Source of the DNA: a virus
Length of the DNA: 20,030 bases
Virus record (IMG/VR): IMGVR_UViG_3300037070_004965
Coordinates: 1-20,030 of that record
Strand: one strand, 5' to 3'
The notes under the pieces were generated by a model, which made no database searches, was not told the DNA's origin, and worked only from the letters and a program-made list of their open reading frames with translations. Shown here piece by piece: positions 11,365 through 19,123 of the stretch (within the stretch, counting starts at the first letter, position 1; every line of letters starts with the position of its first letter). The translations under genes and the position numbers were made by a program.

Positions 11365-11901
11365 TTATTTCAACCAAGACCAGTTATACCCGTGCTTAAT
11401 CGCCTGAATCGTGTTCGGAGACACCCCAAATTCTTTGGCGAGCGTTCTGGTGTCTTCCGTCTGCGAGCGGGTCTTGATAGCTCGCGCCTGATCCTCAGTC
11501 AACTTTGCTTTGTGGTGCTTCGCTCCCCGGTTCGACAAGCCATTGAGCACCTTGTCCCCCATGTTCTCAGCGTGGGTGCCGTATCTCAGGTTCTCCACGC
11601 GATCATCGGTCGTCACATCGTTCTTATGAAGCACCTGTAAGCCATTTGCTGGTCCCAGAAACGCGGCGGCAACGAGATGGGCGACAAGACAGGTCTTTGT
11701 TGTTCCCTGCCTACACAAGACCACATTCCATCTATTACCGCTCGCCTTTCCACGTTTCAACAACCTACCCGGACTCACCCTGAGATAGTCAACGCCTGTT
11801 CTTACAACAGGCACTTCTCTGGGCAACGATTTGACATTACCCTGATCCGAAACCTCGTACAGCCCTTCATACCCGACTACTGGCTTCCAGAGTTCTAGCA
11901 T
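11365..11901 (-). CDS. HNH homing endonuclease with NUMOD4 and C-terminal helix-turn-helix
   Basis: A 178-residue protein. I choose ATG 11901 (MLELWKPVVGYEG) because AAGGAGG lies seven bases upstream; an ATG seven codons earlier would overlap that site. Residues 2-26 match NUMOD4 (LWKPVVGYEGLYEVSDQGNV). Residues 71-115 match the HNH_3 type: His75 in LVAHLVAAAFLG, His92 and Asn94 in VLHKNDVTTDD, Asn104 in VENLRYG, then THAEN. Residues ~150-172 form a helix-turn-helix (TLAKEFGVSPNTIQAIKHG) that would bind DNA. Such free-standing enzymes cut phage genomes lacking the insertion and spread by repair. It sits between the tail tube and tail chaperone genes and interrupts neither, with 55-base and 39-base gaps on either side. 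No intron or intein is visible. Confidence 0.92.
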   Translation of the reverse strand: MLELWKPVVGYEGLYEVSDQGNVKSLPREVPVVRTGVDYLRVSPGRLLKRGKASGNRWNVVLCRQGTTKTCLVAHLVAAAFLGPANGLQVLHKNDVTTDDRVENLRYGTHAENMGDKVLNGLSNRGAKHHKAKLTEDQARAIKTRSQTEDTRTLAKEFGVSPNTIQAIKHGYNWSWLK

Positions 11902-11908
11902 GGGCGGC

Positions 11909-11915
11909 CCTCCTT
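11909..11915 (-). promoter_or_regulatory. Shine-Dalgarno AAGGAGG deciding the HNH gene start
   Basis: AAGGAGG is seven bases upstream of ATG 11901, favouring that start over the ATG seven codons earlier. Confidence 0.75.
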
Positions 11916-11956
11916 GGACCACCCATACTATTACACGGGAGTAAAAAACACAAGGT

Positions 11957-12784
11957 CTAAAACGCGTTGTCTGGTGCCGCCTTGAGCTTTTTGATTGAGA
12001 AGTAGTTCGACCCCGACAGTCGGGTATCGTCCTTGAGCACCGACCCTTCGATCACGAACTGCCCGAACGTATCGCTGAGGAGCGCCAGTTCCTTGAGCGG
12101 GTCGTTGCTGAACCGGAACACATCCACGATGACCGGGCTGTTCTCTTCGATGGTGTTCAAACCCTCGAAGCGCAGCCAGTTGTCGGTGATCGGGCGGGTC
12201 AGCGACGAGACGAGGTACTGCTCGCCGTAGGTGTAGCTGGCGCTCAGTTCATCACCCGCTTCCACAGGCGAGGCTGGCGTGTAGGCCGCGTAATCCATCA
12301 AGATGCCGTCGTTCATCATGATAGAACCCGCCTCCGGATTCAGCTTGTAGTCCCACGGCACGGTGCCGTCCGTGTACGCGGTCAGCGACGTGCCACCCTG
12401 TCGCACGACCACCGCAGACACATCAATGTACCGGAATGCACTCACCAGCCCGGGGAAGCCCATAATCGTTTCGTTGGCTGCAGATCCAGGATGAATCAGC
12501 AGGTCATCACCTCTGGTGGCTTCCGCGAGATTCTTGGCGTTCCAGTTCTCCACCGTAATGGAGCAGGTGACGTTGATTTCGGTCTGCAGACGGGCGTCCG
12601 TCGCACGCTGACCGTCCTGCGACCCTTTGTGGTTCACCACCGTCGTGGTGATCCCCAGCTTCATGTCGGGACAGTTACCTACCGGGCGCAATCCGATGGC
12701 GTCGCCCGTGATTGGATCACGACGACCCACCATGATGACGCCCTGGCCACTGAAATACCAGTTGGCCGCATCAAAAGTTGCCAT
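11957..12784 (-). CDS. Major tail tube protein
   Basis: A 275-residue protein starting at ATG 12784 (MATFDAANWYFSGQG), with GAGGAG seven bases upstream. The frame is open further upstream, but that part is a low-complexity Thr/Arg shadow of the preceding gene's end. The sequence is an alternating beta-rich protein with GVIMVGRRDPITGD near the start, ITCSITVENWNAKNLAEA-like strands around residue 75 and EGSVLKDDTRLSGSNYFSIK at the end. These features, and the place two genes upstream of the tape measure, match siphophage tail tube subunits, which stack as hexameric rings around the tape measure. The tube call is strong; fine family assignment is not possible here. Confidence 0.82.
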   Translation of the reverse strand: MATFDAANWYFSGQGVIMVGRRDPITGDAIGLRPVGNCPDMKLGITTTVVNHKGSQDGQRATDARLQTEINVTCSITVENWNAKNLAEATRGDDLLIHPGSAANETIMGFPGLVSAFRYIDVSAVVVRQGGTSLTAYTDGTVPWDYKLNPEAGSIMMNDGILMDYAAYTPASPVEAGDELSASYTYGEQYLVSSLTRPITDNWLRFEGLNTIEENSPVIVDVFRFSNDPLKELALLSDTFGQFVIEGSVLKDDTRLSGSNYFSIKKLKAAPDNAF

Positions 12785-12791
12785 GCTCGTT

Positions 12792-12797
12792 CTCCTC
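12792..12797 (-). promoter_or_regulatory. Shine-Dalgarno GAGGAG deciding the tail tube start
   Basis: GAGGAG lies seven bases before ATG 12784 and sets the start of the tube protein downstream of the previous gene's stop. Confidence 0.7.
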
Positions 12798-12809
12798 GTC
12801 CTTTTGAAA

Positions 12810-14012
12810 CTAGCGGCCAGCGTCAGGCTTGTTGTCGCGGTCGTCGTCCCGGTCCTTGTCGTTCCGCTCGTTCTTGTCCCGGTCTCCGGCACCCTTGGAT
12901 GGCTTGATGGTCAGGTTGCTACCACGACCAGGACCACCCGGCTTGCCAGGACCACCAGGACCACGACGTCCAGCCTGTCCTTCTGGCGGAGAAGCAGGGC
13001 CAGTCCCTTCAGCATAGAACTGGAACATCATCTCGTTGCTGTCATCCCCATACCCTGTGCGTACCTTCACCGGCAGAGGCTCTGACGGTCCGGTCCACAC
13101 GGCCATGTTGACACCCGTGGTCAACTCCTGCGGAGAGACGAACGTGGTGGGCTCTTCGTAGCCATTGAACACAATCTTGGAATCGGGGCCGAAGCCAGTG
13201 CCACGCACAGTCAGCGTGAAGCTCTCGTCACCGACTTCTGCCGACTCTGGCTCCAACTCGGTGACAGACAGTTCGTACTCCACCTCAGAGCCGGATTCCT
13301 CCAGTGCCCCCAGCGCCCGGAAGAGCAACGGGTTCGTGGCTGCACCTGGAGCCTTGTCGTACCAGAGCACCAAGAGCTTCTTGGCGGCCAAACTGACACT
13401 GCTGCTGAACCCTGAACTGCCAGCCGCTGTGCCGCCCGTGAACGTCGCCCCGGAGATCGTAACGGCGTTGCCGGTCTCGGCCAGCGTATAGCTGTTGCCT
13501 GCCGTTCCTGGCTGACGGACCTTCACCGTCACGATGGTGGGCGTACCCACAGCGACACTCGCGGTCAGTGTGCTGTCGCCTGACATGATGGCCTTAGCCA
13601 ATCGGCTTGCCATCTCGTTCGGGTTGCTGCCACTGGGCGTAATGTCGATAGGCACGACGCCGGGCGGCGTGTTGTAGCTGGTGTGCACTACCACGTCTTT
13701 GAACGTGTAGGCTTTGCCGTTGACCGTCACCTTGTCCCCGTCTACCGCTGTGGTCAGACAAGTAATGGTGGCTGAGGCATTGCGGGCACCAATGGTAATC
13801 GTGTTCAACGCCACGTCCACAAGGTCGGTGAGGTTGACGACGGCCCCGATATGATCTTCTGGATCCATTCCCGTGACCGGGACCACCGTGCCAGCTGCCG
13901 CTCCGGTCACGACGGACAATCTCATGCCCTGGAGTTCGGCAATCGCCTGAGGCATGGCATCGGGAATGCCAGTCCCGCCGAACCCCAGGTTACGAACATT
14001 TACCATACTCAT
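12810..14012 (-). CDS. Virion protein with IPT/TIG-like domain and collagen-like, charged C-terminal tail
   Basis: A 400-residue protein. ATG 14012 (MSMVNVRNLGFGG) is chosen because AAAGGAG is six bases upstream; an ATG seven codons earlier would place that site inside the gene. Residues ~1-70 are a conserved-looking N-terminus. Residues ~75-195 hold a phage structural pattern (VTVNGKAYTFKDVVV, NPNEMASRLAKAI, GTAGNSYTLAETGNAVTISG). Residues ~249-332 fit an IPT/TIG Ig-like domain (FTLTVRGTGFGPDSKIVFNG, SEPLPVKVRTGYGD). The end is unusual: Gly/Pro-rich collagen-like triplets (GGPGKPGGPGRG, ~340-360), then ~30 residues dominated by Asp, Arg, Lys and Asn. It lies between the sugar-enzyme genes and the tail tube gene, so a tail or head decoration role is likely and it may be a substrate of the enzymes upstream; that link is inference. 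Confidence 0.65.
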   Translation of the reverse strand: MSMVNVRNLGFGGTGIPDAMPQAIAELQGMRLSVVTGAAAGTVVPVTGMDPEDHIGAVVNLTDLVDVALNTITIGARNASATITCLTTAVDGDKVTVNGKAYTFKDVVVHTSYNTPPGVVPIDITPSGSNPNEMASRLAKAIMSGDSTLTASVAVGTPTIVTVKVRQPGTAGNSYTLAETGNAVTISGATFTGGTAAGSSGFSSSVSLAAKKLLVLWYDKAPGAATNPLLFRALGALEESGSEVEYELSVTELEPESAEVGDESFTLTVRGTGFGPDSKIVFNGYEEPTTFVSPQELTTGVNMAVWTGPSEPLPVKVRTGYGDDSNEMMFQFYAEGTGPASPPEGQAGRRGPGGPGKPGGPGRGSNLTIKPSKGAGDRDKNERNDKDRDDDRDNKPDAGR

Positions 14013-14087: not shown

Positions 14088-14876
14088 TCAACGGCCATCT
14101 GCACTCAATTGCAACGGAACAATATCCCCAAAATCCCGAGACCACACGCGCAAAAGATGACTATCACTCAGCACATGACGTATCTGCCGATAACGGTCCT
14201 CTAACGACCCCTTTGGACGCGTACTTCGAGCGCGGTGATAACCATACCACCCAACATGCTGAGCCAAGGGCGTTTGTGCCCAGGCCACCTTATATCCATC
14301 CAACAGCCGGGCAATTAGTCCGTCCTGTTCATAGTCCAGCGCAGGTTTCCCCTTCGAAAAAAATCGCTCTCTAATGTAACCTTCCATGCTCCTGAAATAC
14401 GCATCGTTGCAGTGCGGCACCACCACCTGAAGCACTTCCCGTCGAAAGCACACGCCTAACGACGCATACGGACCCTGACGCGGACCTTTTTCGATGGCGA
14501 TACTGCACCCGAGCAGATGCCCATCGTGTTGCGCACGATGCCACGCAAAGAATCCCGGACTGATCACCACGTCATCTTCGATCAGAAACACATGCTGGGC
14601 TTTCGACTGGTAGGCGTCCTTGTAGGCCATCAACACGTTGAAGCTGTTACCGAGATACCTATGCGGAGCACGAAACGTCACCTCCACCGACAGCTGTGGG
14701 AATTTTTTCACCACCGCCAGGATTTCCTCGCGTGGTACGGATGGCTGGTTCACATGGGCGTCCACATACACCCAGACGCGAACGTCTGCACTTTCTGGGC
14801 ACGCAGCAAAATGCTCCAAGCACAGCCACAGCATCTCAGGTCGATCATACGTCGGGATAATTACGACATCTTGCAT
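14088..14876 (-). CDS. Glycosyltransferase, GT-A fold
   Basis: A 262-residue protein whose ATG at 14876 lies 16 bases inside the preceding methyltransferase gene. The N-terminus VVIIPTYDRPEMLWLCLEHF is the nucleotide-sugar entry strand of GT-A enzymes. Around residues 98-104 the sequence FLIEDDVVISPGFF gives an acidic EDD metal-binding motif, as in GnT-I-like and some GT2 enzymes. Later LDYEQDGLIARLL may provide the catalytic acid region. The protein would transfer a sugar from a nucleotide donor in the cytoplasm; donor and acceptor cannot be read. It is the last of five coupled glycan genes and is followed by a 75-base gap before the IPT/TIG protein. The 14-bp motif copy at 14100-14113 encodes LQLSA near its C-terminus. 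Confidence 0.8.
   Translation of the reverse strand: MQDVVIIPTYDRPEMLWLCLEHFAACPESADVRVWVYVDAHVNQPSVPREEILAVVKKFPQLSVEVTFRAPHRYLGNSFNVLMAYKDAYQSKAQHVFLIEDDVVISPGFFAWHRAQHDGHLLGCSIAIEKGPRQGPYASLGVCFRREVLQVVVPHCNDAYFRSMEGYIRERFFSKGKPALDYEQDGLIARLLDGYKVAWAQTPLAQHVGWYGYHRARSTRPKGSLEDRYRQIRHVLSDSHLLRVWSRDFGDIVPLQLSADGR
14100..14113 (+). repeat. 14-bp motif copy 4 (TGCACTCAATTGCA)
   Basis: Located near the 3' end of the last glycosyltransferase gene, just before the 75-base gap leading to the IPT/TIG-domain gene. Followed by ACGG. Confidence 0.8.
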
Positions 14877-15325
14877 AGCCGGAACCTGAGATCTTTGACT
14901 TCACGCGTCACCGAGACCTGCCGCCACCATTTATTGTAGCCTTCTCCGAAGTAATACCGTCCGAAATCTTGCCAGACCGTACCTTTGGCGTCTGGGCACC
15001 AGTATAGGAACGACTCCGGGTGGAACACCCGGTAATGTGTCGGATCACGCCAGCTATACGGGTTGTCCCATGCGGGTAGGCGCATATCGAGGGTGCCGCC
15101 CGGCGACAAGACGCGCCAGCACTCATCCAACCACGTCTGGACATCGCACTTCAGGTGTTCGAACACATCAATAGCAAGCAGGTGCGACAGCTCCCCCTCT
15201 AGCAGGGGCCACGGCATCTGGGCCAAATCAAACGCCACCTCGACATGCGGCGAGTGTTTCCATCGGTCGTGGTGAATCCAGCCCGACGTCGGATGATTAC
15301 CGCAGCCCAACTCCAGACGAGTCAT
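14861..15325 (-). CDS. Class I SAM-dependent methyltransferase
   Basis: A 154-residue protein starting at ATG 15325, sharing an ATGA overlap with the upstream methyltransferase stop. Motif I is LELGCGNHPTSGW at residues 4-16; an acidic DVFEHL follows near residue 53, and WRVLSPGGTLDMRLP near 70-84 is the usual post-core strand. This is the compact Methyltransf_11-like form often found beside glycosyltransferases. The C-terminal part is rich in aromatic residues (HYRVFHPESFLYWCPD, FGRYYFGEGYNKWW), likely substrate binding. Its substrate may be a sugar on a growing glycan, judged from neighbours only. Confidence 0.82.
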   Translation of the reverse strand: MTRLELGCGNHPTSGWIHHDRWKHSPHVEVAFDLAQMPWPLLEGELSHLLAIDVFEHLKCDVQTWLDECWRVLSPGGTLDMRLPAWDNPYSWRDPTHYRVFHPESFLYWCPDAKGTVWQDFGRYYFGEGYNKWWRQVSVTREVKDLRFRLCKMS

Positions 15326-15867
15326 AGCTTCATCACCATCGCCGCGTTACAGCCGCCATGAAGTTCAGCAATGCGCTCTACGGAGTAGGTCCACCGCCAC
15401 CGAGACAAGTTCGCCTCCCACACATGCGCCAACCAAGGATAATTCGAGTGGTTTATGTCATCCATCACCAATATTCCCCCTCGACGCACCAATGGCCATG
15501 CGTTTTGCAGATCAATCTGGGCTCCAACACCACTATGATCCCCATCCACCAACACGAGATCAAACTGCTCGCGCAGCGTCGGAATCAGCGTTTTCGAATC
15601 CCCGTCTAAGAACTGGGCTGATGTCTTGAAATACTCCAATATCTTCAGCACGACAGGCTTGGCATCTCCGTGGTCGCAGTAGGTCGGATCCCAAATGTCA
15701 CAGAGCACGATGCGAGACGGCACCCCTTCGCACAACACCGTGTTCAACGACCCTCCACCATCCACTCCAATCTCCAGATAACTATCCACTTTCTTCAGCA
15801 ACGCGCACGCGGCACGCAGTGCTTCGTGCAGGTCCATGCCCACTTCACCGGACCACTGCCAATTCAT
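15322..15867 (-). CDS. Class I SAM methyltransferase, Methyltransf_24-like
   Basis: A 181-residue protein with ATG 15867 overlapping the upstream stop as ATGA. SAM-binding motif I is YLEIGVDGGGSL (residues ~28-39). FDLVLVDGDHSG (~102-112) and GGILVMDDINH (~128-138) are the acidic motifs typical of the Methyltransf_24/cephalosporin hydroxylase-like group, some of which O-methylate sugars with a metal ion. The His and Asp residues in DGDHS and MDDINHS fit metal binding. With another methyltransferase directly downstream, the cassette could add two methyl groups to one glycan. The substrate is not determined. Confidence 0.8.
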   Translation of the reverse strand: MNWQWSGEVGMDLHEALRAACALLKKVDSYLEIGVDGGGSLNTVLCEGVPSRIVLCDIWDPTYCDHGDAKPVVLKILEYFKTSAQFLDGDSKTLIPTLREQFDLVLVDGDHSGVGAQIDLQNAWPLVRRGGILVMDDINHSNYPWLAHVWEANLSRWRWTYSVERIAELHGGCNAAMVMKL

Positions 15868-16730
15868 GACGCCCTCCCCACCAACGCGTCCAACGCCTGC
15901 TGAAACGCCTGTTGCTCTTCGTGGTATTTCGTTCGGACTCCGTCCTGCAGCTGTTGGAGGAGAGTGGGCGGCATATCTAAGACGTGTTTTACCATCTTTG
16001 CAACATCCGACGATGAGACTTTGTGCAACAATCCTTCATGGTGCCGTCGTGTTGACACACTTGGCACTAGGAGGACAGGTGACAATTCATTCATCGGTGG
16101 GGCGTCCGTCGTCACGATCACCTGCCCGACTCCCATGGACTCATGGAGCACCTGTCCATAGCCTTCATATGCGGACGGCATCAAATGGCAAAAGTGCGAA
16201 TTCATCAGGTAGATCAATTCTTTGTCGGACACACGTCGTCGCGGGAACACATGCTCCCCTACCACGGTCAGAGGCACACCCGCTTGATGGCAGCCTTCTA
16301 CTACCGCTGTCGTGTTCTTGAACTGTGACTTCCCGGCGACGTGCAGAAACTTTCGCTCTCTGGGAATCGTCGGCACATACAGATCTCTAGCGGTCCAGCC
16401 AAGATACTGACACCGATCCCCACACTTCTGCCGGAAAATGCGTTCGCAATCTCGCGTCTTGGCCAACACTTTGTGCCAAACGTGTTGCGTCCAGGCTGAG
16501 AACCACCACTCCGGATTCGGCACGGCCCACTGCACCGGAGCCGCCTGGAACACCAGCGGGTTTACCACCTCCAAGAAGATGTTGACATCCGCTTTGGGCA
16601 CCCTGGCAGGCTGATTGAACTGGACGCCCTGCACCTGATGACCACGCGCCTCCAACTCCTTCCGAAGCAATTCGTAGTCTTGCTGCAGGCCACATCCGTT
16701 CGCCAGATTGCTGACCAGATTAAAGCGCAC
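15864..16730 (-). CDS. Glycosyltransferase, GT-B fold (GT4-like)
   Basis: A 288-residue protein. I prefer GTG 16730 (VRFNLVSNLANGCGLQQDY) over ATG 16814, because the GTG gives an 11-base overlap with the previous gene and begins at the natural first strand of the fold; no good Shine-Dalgarno is seen for either. The first domain includes GLQQDYELLRKELEARGHQV. The second carries RKFLHVAGKSQFKNTTAVVE and the GT4 signature SAYEGYGQVLHESMGVGQ (~residues 183-200), with E-x7-E spacing for nucleotide-sugar binding. It is somewhat short for GT4 enzymes. Position second in the cassette suggests it extends a sugar chain. Confidence 0.8.
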   Translation of the reverse strand: MRFNLVSNLANGCGLQQDYELLRKELEARGHQVQGVQFNQPARVPKADVNIFLEVVNPLVFQAAPVQWAVPNPEWWFSAWTQHVWHKVLAKTRDCERIFRQKCGDRCQYLGWTARDLYVPTIPRERKFLHVAGKSQFKNTTAVVEGCHQAGVPLTVVGEHVFPRRRVSDKELIYLMNSHFCHLMPSAYEGYGQVLHESMGVGQVIVTTDAPPMNELSPVLLVPSVSTRRHHEGLLHKVSSSDVAKMVKHVLDMPPTLLQQLQDGVRTKYHEEQQAFQQALDALVGRAS

Positions 16731-17388
16731 AGGGAAAGGCTTTCGGCAAAGACGACTTGGCCACCGGAGTATAACTCGTGCGTGACAGGCTCTTTCGACA
16801 CGTCTGATGGTCATGCACTCGTGCCACCATCAACTGCCCGGCCGCAGCGGTCGGTACGAGTTTGTACGCTTCTCGCATGGCCTGCTGCACAAAACGGACG
16901 TCTTCACCCACCGTCAACGACCGAAAGGGATGGTGATCCCACCACTGACGCCGGTAGCACAGCGACGTGCCCAGCAAATATCGCATCGTGACTTGAGGCG
17001 TGTGCCACTGATAGCATTTGCCATCTCGCACATCATAAAACAGCATCGAGTGGTACCCCGTCACTACGCCGAACGTGCCGAGACGAGTGACCTGATCCGT
17101 CACTCTTTCCGGGGCTGACCAGTCATCCGAATCGAAATGGCAGATCACCTGTCCACTGGACTGCATCACACACGCGTTCCGCATGTCTCCGGTGGTCACC
17201 TCACCATGCACTCGGGCATAGCGAATCGTCGGATCTGGCGGAATCAGCGACTCGGTCGCATCTTCGCCATTATCCAGGACAATCAGTTCTTTATTCGGGT
17301 ACGTCTGCGATTGGTAGCTACGAATGGCGTCGGGGACGAAGGCTGCCCGATTTTTGGTCGGCAGAATGCAGGACACCAGCGGGAACAT
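16720..17388 (-). CDS. Glycosyltransferase family 2-like
   Basis: A 222-residue protein starting at ATG 17388, 12 bases after the tail-terminator-like gene; the ribosome site is weak. VSCILPTKNRAAFVPDAIRS is the GT2 donor-binding N-terminus, ELIVLDNGED follows, and CHFDSDDWSAPE at about residues 83-94 supplies the DxD metal-binding motif. LTVGEDVRFVQQAM near residue 170 fits the later catalytic ED region. It is the first gene of the five-gene glycan cassette and would be a candidate for starting the chain on a protein or other acceptor, but the acceptor is unknown. Confidence 0.85.
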   Translation of the reverse strand: MFPLVSCILPTKNRAAFVPDAIRSYQSQTYPNKELIVLDNGEDATESLIPPDPTIRYARVHGEVTTGDMRNACVMQSSGQVICHFDSDDWSAPERVTDQVTRLGTFGVVTGYHSMLFYDVRDGKCYQWHTPQVTMRYLLGTSLCYRRQWWDHHPFRSLTVGEDVRFVQQAMREAYKLVPTAAAGQLMVARVHDHQTCRKSLSRTSYTPVAKSSLPKAFPCAL

Positions 17389-17400
17389 ACAGGCTGGACA

Positions 17401-17874
17401 TCAGGGAACAGGACGTGACGGGTGCGCCAGTTGGACAGGCACACTCCATCGCTGCACCCAACATACGGTGCCTGAACGGAGCGCCGCTGGAGCTTCCACC
17501 ATGAACTTCCAGAAATGACGTGTGACCGTACTCTTCTGACCAATAAACTGGTACCGCATCGCGTCCAGATATTCAATAGCTCGCGTGCGTTTTTGTGTCG
17601 TGTTGTGAAGTTCGTCACCGCGCTCCACTAGCACCAGCCCTAGAACAATTTCACAAGATAAACCGACCTGCGCAGTGGTTCCCGTCTCCGACTGGGACCG
17701 CATGCCTTCATAGACAATGCCCACGGCCGGGTAGCTACGCACGCCCTTCAAGACATCAAGCAGATCGTTTTCATCATAGGCGACCACAACTTTGCCCGTC
17801 AGATTAACAGGCGGAGCATTCAATTTCAGCAAACGCGTGCTGGCTTCTTCTAAAATATCTACCAGCTGGCTCAT
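17401..17874 (-). CDS. Tail terminator-like / head-tail joining protein
   Basis: A 157-residue protein with ATG 17874 overlapping the upstream stop as ATGA. It begins with a helix (MSQLVDILEEASTRLLKL), then alternating strands (KVVVAYDENDLLDVLKGV, VGLSCEIVLGLVLVERGD) and a helix (KRTRAIEYLDAMRYQFIG). Size, secondary-structure pattern and place directly after a gpS-like gene fit tail terminator proteins (gpU-like), which cap the tube and join it to the head. I recognise no strict motif, so the call rests mainly on position. Confidence 0.6.
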   Translation of the reverse strand: MSQLVDILEEASTRLLKLNAPPVNLTGKVVVAYDENDLLDVLKGVRSYPAVGIVYEGMRSQSETGTTAQVGLSCEIVLGLVLVERGDELHNTTQKRTRAIEYLDAMRYQFIGQKSTVTRHFWKFMVEAPAALRSGTVCWVQRWSVPVQLAHPSRPVP

Positions 17875-18335
17875 GGCGTACCACTCTGCTTCAGTGCTTG
17901 CTGAATACGCCGGATGATCACCTTCTGCATGGCTCCCAGATCTTCTGGCGCAAAGCCCAGGAATTGACGCTGCGGGAATCCAATGCCGAACTGGTGCTTA
18001 TGAGCATACGGAAACCCCTGTGGCGACGTCACGTTGGTGCCAATCGAACGCGTCGTTCGGCTGTCAGCAAACAACTGGATACTCCGAAACAGCCGACCCG
18101 TATCAAACAGCGTTCCACCTCCACGACCACTCTTGGCCCGACGGATGGCGGCTTGGGATGGCGGCCACTTTACTCCACTCGGGTCCATCTCCATCAAAAA
18201 ACGTGTCCGCATCCGGTTATAGATGACGGCTGCGCCTTCGTCCAGGATCTTCACCGTGTCCAGAGCCTCAGTCAGGGCAGCAATGGATTTCTCCAGCCCC
18301 GTCTGTCCAGCGACCGTGACGGTCAACAGTTTCAT
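17871..18335 (-). CDS. Phage virion morphogenesis protein, gpS-like
   Basis: A 154-residue protein with ATG 18335 overlapping the previous stop as ATGA. The segment GGTLFDTGRLFRSIQ (residues ~72-87), followed by IGTNVTSPQGFPYAHKHQFG and PQRQFLGF, is the typical signature of the phage virion morphogenesis/gpS family, involved in head-tail joining or tail completion. The C-terminus ends in a short helix (MQKVIIRRIQQALKQ). Length fits the family. Neighbours on both sides are head-tail joining genes. Confidence 0.82.
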   Translation of the reverse strand: MKLLTVTVAGQTGLEKSIAALTEALDTVKILDEGAAVIYNRMRTRFLMEMDPSGVKWPPSQAAIRRAKSGRGGGTLFDTGRLFRSIQLFADSRTTRSIGTNVTSPQGFPYAHKHQFGIGFPQRQFLGFAPEDLGAMQKVIIRRIQQALKQSGTP

Positions 18336-19123
18336 AGCGCCCTGAACGTGAACCCTTGCGTCCGCATGTACGGCTGGAGCAGAACGTTGGCGTGGTCCGT
18401 CAACGTCTTATACTGCTCCTTGGCTTCATTGGCTCGATTGGTGGTCTGCTGCGCGTTGAACACCATCGGTACGAGCGCCATGATGGCTTCGTAGATCGGG
18501 TTCGGAATCGGATCCATCGGGACGAAGGCGGGCGTCCAGAAAGTGGCGTTCGTCGGCGGCTCATTTGACGGCATGGCAATACAGGTGTACGCCTTCCCGT
18601 TATAGGCCACCTGATCTCCTACCGCATAGGAATTGGGCACTTCAAACACCGACAGCCCTTCAACGGACAGCGGAGTGGTGCCGTCTTCGAACCCCGTCGT
18701 GCACTGCACCCGGACGTACGAGTTGCCATACGTCCCGGCGTCCACGTACAGATATCCACGCCGGTAGTCAAACTGCATCAAACTCTGATCAATGGCTTCG
18801 TGCGGAACAAACGGTCCAGACGAGGCGTCCGTAGACACCGTTACGGTCTGAACCGCATCTTCACGCACGAGACCACTGGGAACCTCCAGGCGGTACAGAC
18901 CACCTGGAGCAATACCAGAGAACGATTCCGCATCAATGAAAAAACGACAGTCCTGCGCTTGGCGCGACAACTTCCCATCGATGACACGTTCGACGTGCAG
19001 CTGAGCCGCCATGATGCCAGACGAAATGACATCCTCAATGCCGGTTAGGTCCGCACTCAACTGCATCCGCAGAATCACATCGGCGGGGTCCACGAACAAC
19101 GGCATCGCCATCCGGACTGCCAT
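18332..19123 (-). CDS. Head-tail connector-like protein with CBM5/12-like insert
   Basis: A 263-residue protein with ATG 19123, four bases past the preceding stop and without a clear ribosome site. The N-terminal part (PADVILRMQLSADLTGIEDV, MAAQLHVERVIDGKL) fits the helical gp6-like connector type, followed by beta-rich sequence. Residues ~158-198 read VPNSYAVGDQVAYNGKAYTC ... EPPTNATFW, the pattern of a carbohydrate-binding module 5/12 (YxxGDxVxYNGKxYxC, conserved W). The remaining C-terminus is helical (NPIYEAIMALVPMVFNAQQT). A sugar-binding module inside a connector-position protein is unusual; it may instead be a neck or decoration protein. Role is inferred from order. Confidence 0.6.
   Translation of the reverse strand: MAVRMAMPLFVDPADVILRMQLSADLTGIEDVISSGIMAAQLHVERVIDGKLSRQAQDCRFFIDAESFSGIAPGGLYRLEVPSGLVREDAVQTVTVSTDASSGPFVPHEAIDQSLMQFDYRRGYLYVDAGTYGNSYVRVQCTTGFEDGTTPLSVEGLSVFEVPNSYAVGDQVAYNGKAYTCIAMPSNEPPTNATFWTPAFVPMDPIPNPIYEAIMALVPMVFNAQQTTNRANEAKEQYKTLTDHANVLLQPYMRTQGFTFRAL

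Follow-up and report, generated by a model that had tools for sequence, protein, structure and literature searches.

The window analyzed here, the whole 20,030-base stretch of DNA in IMG/VR record IMGVR_UViG_3300037070_004965 from an uncultivated tailed virus of bacteria, carries at 14088-17388 (minus strand) a cassette of five open reading frames (ORFs) that is probably a phage-encoded virion-glycosylation module, putting an O-methylated glycan on a virion protein. In order, the ORFs encode a family-2 glycosyltransferase (GT; GT2a), a GT4-like enzyme (GT4), two class I S-adenosylmethionine (SAM) methyltransferases (MT24 and MT11), and a third GT (GT2b), and they lie between a tail-terminator-like gene and two tail genes (Table 1). 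A first-pass annotation, made from the letters alone, had described three GTs and two SAM methyltransferases as linked genes inserted between tail-terminator-like and tail genes, and had proposed modification of virion proteins or of the host surface. Its description holds: the ORFs have the expected Pfam domains and intact catalytic motifs, and the flanks are identified by a Neck1 gene (phrog_26), a neighbor that is terminator-like by position, and a major tail gene (phrog_807). Its interpretation is partly supported.

The cassette enzymes look active, as judged from their conservation. Across homologs the HFDSDDW motif of GT2a, the E-X7-E motif of GT4 (with E217 and E225 invariant), and the SAM-binding motifs of MT24 and MT11 are conserved, and E100-D101-D102 of GT2b (EDD) is invariant. 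Between the window and its relative L003, the ratio of nonsynonymous to synonymous substitution rates (dN/dS) is 0.07-0.14 for GT2a, GT4, MT24, and MT11; GT2b could not be scored in that pair, and its value against another relative, L002, was discarded, an in-frame stop in L002 disturbing the codon alignment. The GT4-like ORF (15864-16814) matches Glycos_transf_1 just under the Pfam cut-off (1.6e-5; 25.0 bits, cut-off 26.4). An AlphaFold2 model of GT2b (predicted local distance difference test score, pLDDT, 91.9) has a GT-A fold with an acidic metal-binding motif; its Foldseek matches span SpsA, GnT-I, TarP/TarS, and the collagen galactosyltransferase COLGALT1 (E ~1e-7 to 1e-9), and thus indicate no single acceptor. 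PDB sequence searches gave only weak matches for GT4, MT24, and GT2b, and a scan of bacterial genomes with GT4 only matches of ~24-36% identity in diverse phyla, which offer no clue to the host. Same-site conservation in many contigs, low dN/dS, and invariant catalytic residues together exclude chance as an explanation for the cassette.

Adjacent genes overlap by 4 (GT4/MT24), 4 (MT24/MT11), and 16 bases (MT11/GT2b), and 12 bases separate the cassette from the terminator-like gene. The range of 4-16 bases originally proposed for all the overlaps also covers GT2a/GT4 (11 bases) if GT4 begins at GTG 16730, the start position favored by most of its homologs, but not with the listed ATG, which gives 95 bases. 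Because a scan for sigma-70 promoters and terminators gave a result at chance level, the argument for co-transcription comes only from these overlaps and the shared strand.

IMG/VR was searched with the window proteins, and the contigs compared are designated here by L-numbers. At least nine distinct relatives have the cassette at this site (L003, L005, L009, L010, L012, L014, L016, L017, and L037, plus near-copies), and in those of 112-120 kb every Glycos_transf_2 match lies inside it. More distant relatives (L022, L136, and L137) lack it and have the order terminator, p12810 (the gene directly downstream of the cassette in the window), major tail protein; no Glycos_transf_2 match was found in the cassette-free relatives. 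In the cultured phages SIO-2 (Vibrio), SM1 (Pseudomonas), and PA_L9, the gene for the major tail protein comes immediately after the terminator, and both the cassette and p12810 are missing. In L005 and L014, HNH-like genes are inserted within the cassette, and in L010 they lie ahead of it. By these comparisons the cassette is a real, replaceable module, as the first-pass annotation had suggested a synteny comparison might reveal: there are empty sites, it is present in unrelated structural blocks, and its methyltransferase slot is swapped.

The GTs and the methyltransferases appear to have had different histories. By pairwise distance, the three GTs diverge in step with the structural genes (Mantel r 0.82, P 0.002); MT24 distances correlate only weakly with this backbone (Mantel r 0.17). 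The slot has at least four alternative contents: one type of MT24 (A) with MT11 in the window, L003, L005, and L017; another (B) without MT11 in L009, L010, L012, L014, and L016; a third type with MT11 in L037; and other genes altogether in L135. In this last variant (L135:4230-7460), GT2a and GT4 are kept, and two other genes, of 312 and 260 aa, take the place of the remainder ahead of p12810. The near-identical phage L002 differs from the window mainly in the slot: over ~3.7 kb the two are almost the same, then identity drops to 71-98% across most of the end of GT4, MT24, MT11, and GT2b, and the match resumes in the last bases of L002, at the start of p12810. By these identities, this is the pattern of local allele replacement. 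The GT2b gene of L002 (L002:5742-6503) has an in-frame stop ~180 codons in, between intact flanking genes; either some alleles are nonfunctional, perhaps, or the contig contains an error. Judging from the distances, the GTs have descended together with the structural genes and the methyltransferase part is exchanged between phages, which fits selection to vary an exposed glycan on a constant backbone.

The cassette is also present outside this group. Two pairs of contigs, L040/L072 and L038/L074, have the same five-gene set and order, with neighboring structural genes unrelated to those of the window: on one side are a large protein in structural position (phrog_13692) and a small IPT/TIG protein, and on the other the head-tail adaptor (connector), Neck1-like, and tail genes. 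In L104 the five-gene set is beside Neck1 and terminator genes, with its MT24 fused to an NTP_transf_3-like domain (1.1e-5, just below cut-off), a fusion that hints at sugar-nucleotide chemistry; in L075 all five genes are present in rearranged order. Smaller combinations occur as well: in L095 the GT4-GT2b pair is flanked by portal and major head genes, in L091 and L083 it adjoins the portal gene, GT2a relatives flank tail-tube-like and tape-measure-like genes in L306 (both names being our own reading of the sequences), and MT11 copies 52-96% identical occur in the cassettes of other phages. Two further contigs have a different methyltransferase and a GT-D-like protein between GT4 and GT2b (L041:1505-2769 and L073:8862-10141), the L073 set being located between terminase and portal genes. 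More distant MT11 relatives (~50% identity) are present in L268, L275, and ~25 similar contigs, among genes that look like replication and recombination genes.

Virion glycosylation in mycobacteriophages, cited as a precedent in the first pass, is indeed reported, with an accompanying methyltransferase. The statements concerning Che8, Corndog, and Myrna all go back to Freeman et al. (2023). According to three sources, these phages use their own GTs to glycosylate capsid and/or tail-tube proteins, altering antibody recognition, and Che8 gp110 is called essential for capsid glycosylation (PMC11600133, PMC12363180, PMC4351075). Like the window, Che8 has three adjacent GT genes (gp108-gp110) with a Methyltransf_24/TylF-type methyltransferase, gp108 itself being a GT2-Methyltransf_24 fusion; unlike it, the Che8 set is at the right genome end rather than in the tail block, includes a GT25-type enzyme, and has no Methyltransf_11. 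For cluster O (Corndog/Firecracker), the Firecracker sequence was analyzed as representative. There, a Methyltransf_24/TylF O-methyltransferase (gp33) and three GTs are found inside the virion structural operon, as in the window, but between portal and protease genes, with one methyltransferase instead of two, and with a GT25-like gp36 and no GT4 found. HHalign comparisons of the window GTs with those of Che8 and Firecracker gave probabilities of at most 4%, showing no relationship beyond the superfamily. Since the Che8 and Firecracker GTs accompany a Methyltransf_24/TylF enzyme, and the cluster O set is in the structural operon, the window cassette resembles them both in its components and in its setting. 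It is best regarded as a functional analog of the Che8/Corndog kind, and not a member by descent, and it differs in its GTs and in having a second methyltransferase.

Closer sequence relatives are found in the Streptomyces phages Kela and Satis (gp48-49 and gp53-54), where homologs of GT4 and GT2b are adjacent and in the same order (27-33% identity over most of their length), just upstream of the neck and major tail genes. In contrast to the window, they have no adjacent annotated methyltransferases and no GT2a, and they belong to a different phage family. The homologous GT pair is carried by a third Streptomyces phage, JustBecause, as well. The surrounding tail module resembles that of SIO-2 and the Samunavirus SM1 in its order (neck, terminator, major tail), with major tail proteins 34-37% identical. 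A megablast search of cultured phages with the whole window gave no match.

The p12810 protein is a candidate glycan acceptor from its sequence and position, the major tail protein being the other obvious candidate. It has an IPT/TIG Ig-like domain at about residues 253-340 and a Gly/Pro-rich, charged C-terminal tail; among its relatives the core is conserved and the C-terminus is variable. Its AlphaFold2 model is good in the IPT region (pLDDT ~87) and poor elsewhere (mean pLDDT 52), and its PDB sequence matches were set aside as antibody-domain noise. The p12810 alleles look exchanged, with L005 grouping with L014 against the backbone. In L072 and L074, an IPT/TIG protein with a Ser/Thr-rich leader is encoded immediately upstream of the cassette. 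An IPT/TIG gene therefore adjoins the cassette in two unrelated lineages, a link that, from gene order, is suggestive only.

The recognized genes of the window are on the minus strand, with the neck/terminator region followed by the tail block (major tail protein, tail assembly gene, tape measure, and further tail proteins). ATG 14012 of p12810 is preceded by a ribosome-binding site. The ORF finder pushes the major tail gene upstream into p12810 (12785-12892), but its likely start, ATG 12784, has a good ribosome-binding site (AGGACGAGGAG upstream), so the two genes do not really overlap. An HNH endonuclease gene (11365-11922; phrog_59, 7e-40) is found between the major tail protein and tail assembly genes. 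The gene in connector position (18332-19123) has a CBM_5_12-like segment at residues 164-196 (2.4e-5; 24.7 bits, cut-off 26.2), possibly a small carbohydrate-binding insert in a neck protein.

Table 1. The glycosyltransferase/methyltransferase cassette and neighboring genes, with positions in the window.
Feature	Position	Strand	Basis
Neck1 / tail completion protein	17871..18335	-	phrog_26 6e-22; PF05069 2.6e-10
Tail-terminator-like gene, upstream neighbor of cassette	17401..17874	-	Weak phrog_26611; position between Neck1 and major tail gene as in SIO-2, SM1
GT2a, family-2 glycosyltransferase, 222 aa, first cassette gene	16720..17388	-	PF00535 Glycos_transf_2 2.7e-15; metal/nucleotide motif CHFDSDDW invariant in 9 homologs
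GT4-like glycosyltransferase	15864..16730 (GTG start; alternative ATG 16814)	-	PF00534 Glycos_transf_1/PF13692; E-X7-E motif EGYGQVLHE
MT24, class I SAM methyltransferase	15322..15867	-	PF13578 Methyltransf_24 1.8e-14
MT11, class I SAM methyltransferase	14861..15325	-	PF08241 Methyltransf_11 6.9e-5, above cut-off
GT2b, GT-A-fold glycosyltransferase, last cassette gene	14088..14876	-	PF13641 Glyco_tranf_2_3 3.2e-7, above cut-off; EDD motif invariant
p12810, tail-region protein directly downstream of cassette, 407-aa ORF	12810..14012	-	IPT/TIG PF01833 9.8e-5, 22.7 bits (cut-off 20.9)
Major tail protein, phrog_807 "with Ig-like domain"	11957..12784	-	phrog_807 2.4e-52

As a virion-glycosylation module, the cassette might work as follows. 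Expressed late, the three soluble GTs would use nucleoside diphosphate (NDP)-sugars of the host to build a short glycan in the cytosol, directly on a virion protein, most likely the adjacent p12810 or the major tail protein; one GT would prime a side chain of the acceptor and the others extend it, and MT24 and MT11 would O-methylate sugar hydroxyls, capping or diversifying the chain. A varied glycan could help the phage to escape recognition, proteolysis, or unproductive adsorption. The sequence itself supports location, intactness, modularity, recurrence among virion genes, and swapping; we infer the late timing, the acceptor, the sequence of steps, the methylation of sugar, and the benefit.

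Several observations weigh against this proposal. GT2, GT4, and Methyltransf_24 are broad superfamilies, from whose sequences an acceptor cannot be read, and the choice of acceptor is a guess. In three cassette carriers (L005, L014, and L037) p12810 lacks the IPT part, and an obligatory link between IPT domain and cassette was rejected on this account. (Searching whole contigs in six frames with Pfam TIG is uninformative on its absence, since this overlooked the domain in relatives of p12810.) No genes for sugar-nucleotide synthesis (Epimerase and NTP_transferase families) were found in 14 contigs, so the glycan donors would have to come from the host. MT11 relatives with ~50% identity are found in unrelated phages that lack the cassette, apparently away from structural genes; MT11 is thus not specific to virion modification, and was rejected as a diagnostic gene for it. 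Finally, a late location is also compatible with modification of the host envelope.

Host-surface modification is in fact the main rival, though we consider it unlikely: lipopolysaccharide (LPS), capsule, or a cytosolic lipid-linked precursor would be altered late in infection, blocking superinfection or the sticking of progeny to debris. Phages that alter the host O-antigen are known, LPS and polysaccharide pathways typically use GT4 and GT2 enzymes, and RfaG is among the distant profile matches. However, the five proteins are without membrane segments (mean hydropathy exceeds 1.2 in no window of 19 residues), and neither a flippase nor a membrane-bound GT was found by Pfam among the five ORFs, which sets them apart from Gtr-type O-antigen conversion and makes a host-surface role less likely. 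The module moreover recurs inside the head-tail blocks of unrelated phages, and in placement and composition it resembles the mycobacteriophage cassettes reported to modify virions.

As a second alternative, the enzymes might make a methylated glycan or glycolipid, soluble or secreted, that has nothing to do with the virion, their location simply marking a place in a strongly expressed operon where insertions are tolerated. The HNH genes in and beside the cassette do indicate that the site tolerates insertions, and relatives of MT11 and GT2a can occur apart from the other cassette genes; but in several lineages the GT4-GT2b pair has portal, head, or tail genes as neighbors, and in two of these lineages the cassette is next to a gene for an IPT-domain protein, making this alternative quite improbable. 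Decoration of a hypermodified DNA base is the least probable of all: phage GTs and methyltransferases often act on DNA, and weak PHROG matches of MT24 and MT11 are labeled DNA methyltransferase, but the two belong to Methyltransf_24 and Methyltransf_11 and not to DNA methyltransferase families, a virion block is an odd location for base hypermodification, and a search of 14 contigs, four of them 112-120 kb long with the cassette at the same site, gave no gene of the thymidylate synthase family (Thymidylat_synt, hydroxymethylase-type), though the contigs may be incomplete and other routes were not searched for.

Virion glycosylation has been demonstrated, in the literature found, for a few mycobacteriophages, in which it alters antibody recognition (PMC11600133, PMC12363180, PMC4351075). 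The cassette described here points to a much wider occurrence of virion glycans that phages make themselves and probably methylate: one group of its carriers is related to siphophages of Pseudomonas and Vibrio, and it also appears as a unit in unrelated phages. A bolder version, which seems to us possible but doubtful, is that of a widespread, horizontally moving virion glycan system outside the actinobacteriophages, made up of a GT core inherited with the tail genes and of a methyltransferase slot and an adjacent IPT/collagen-like tail protein that are both swapped, in which O-methylation would vary the surface glycan as a kind of phage serotype switch. With specific acceptor candidates and a swappable methylation step, the function of virion glycans becomes testable in the environment, where no antibodies act.

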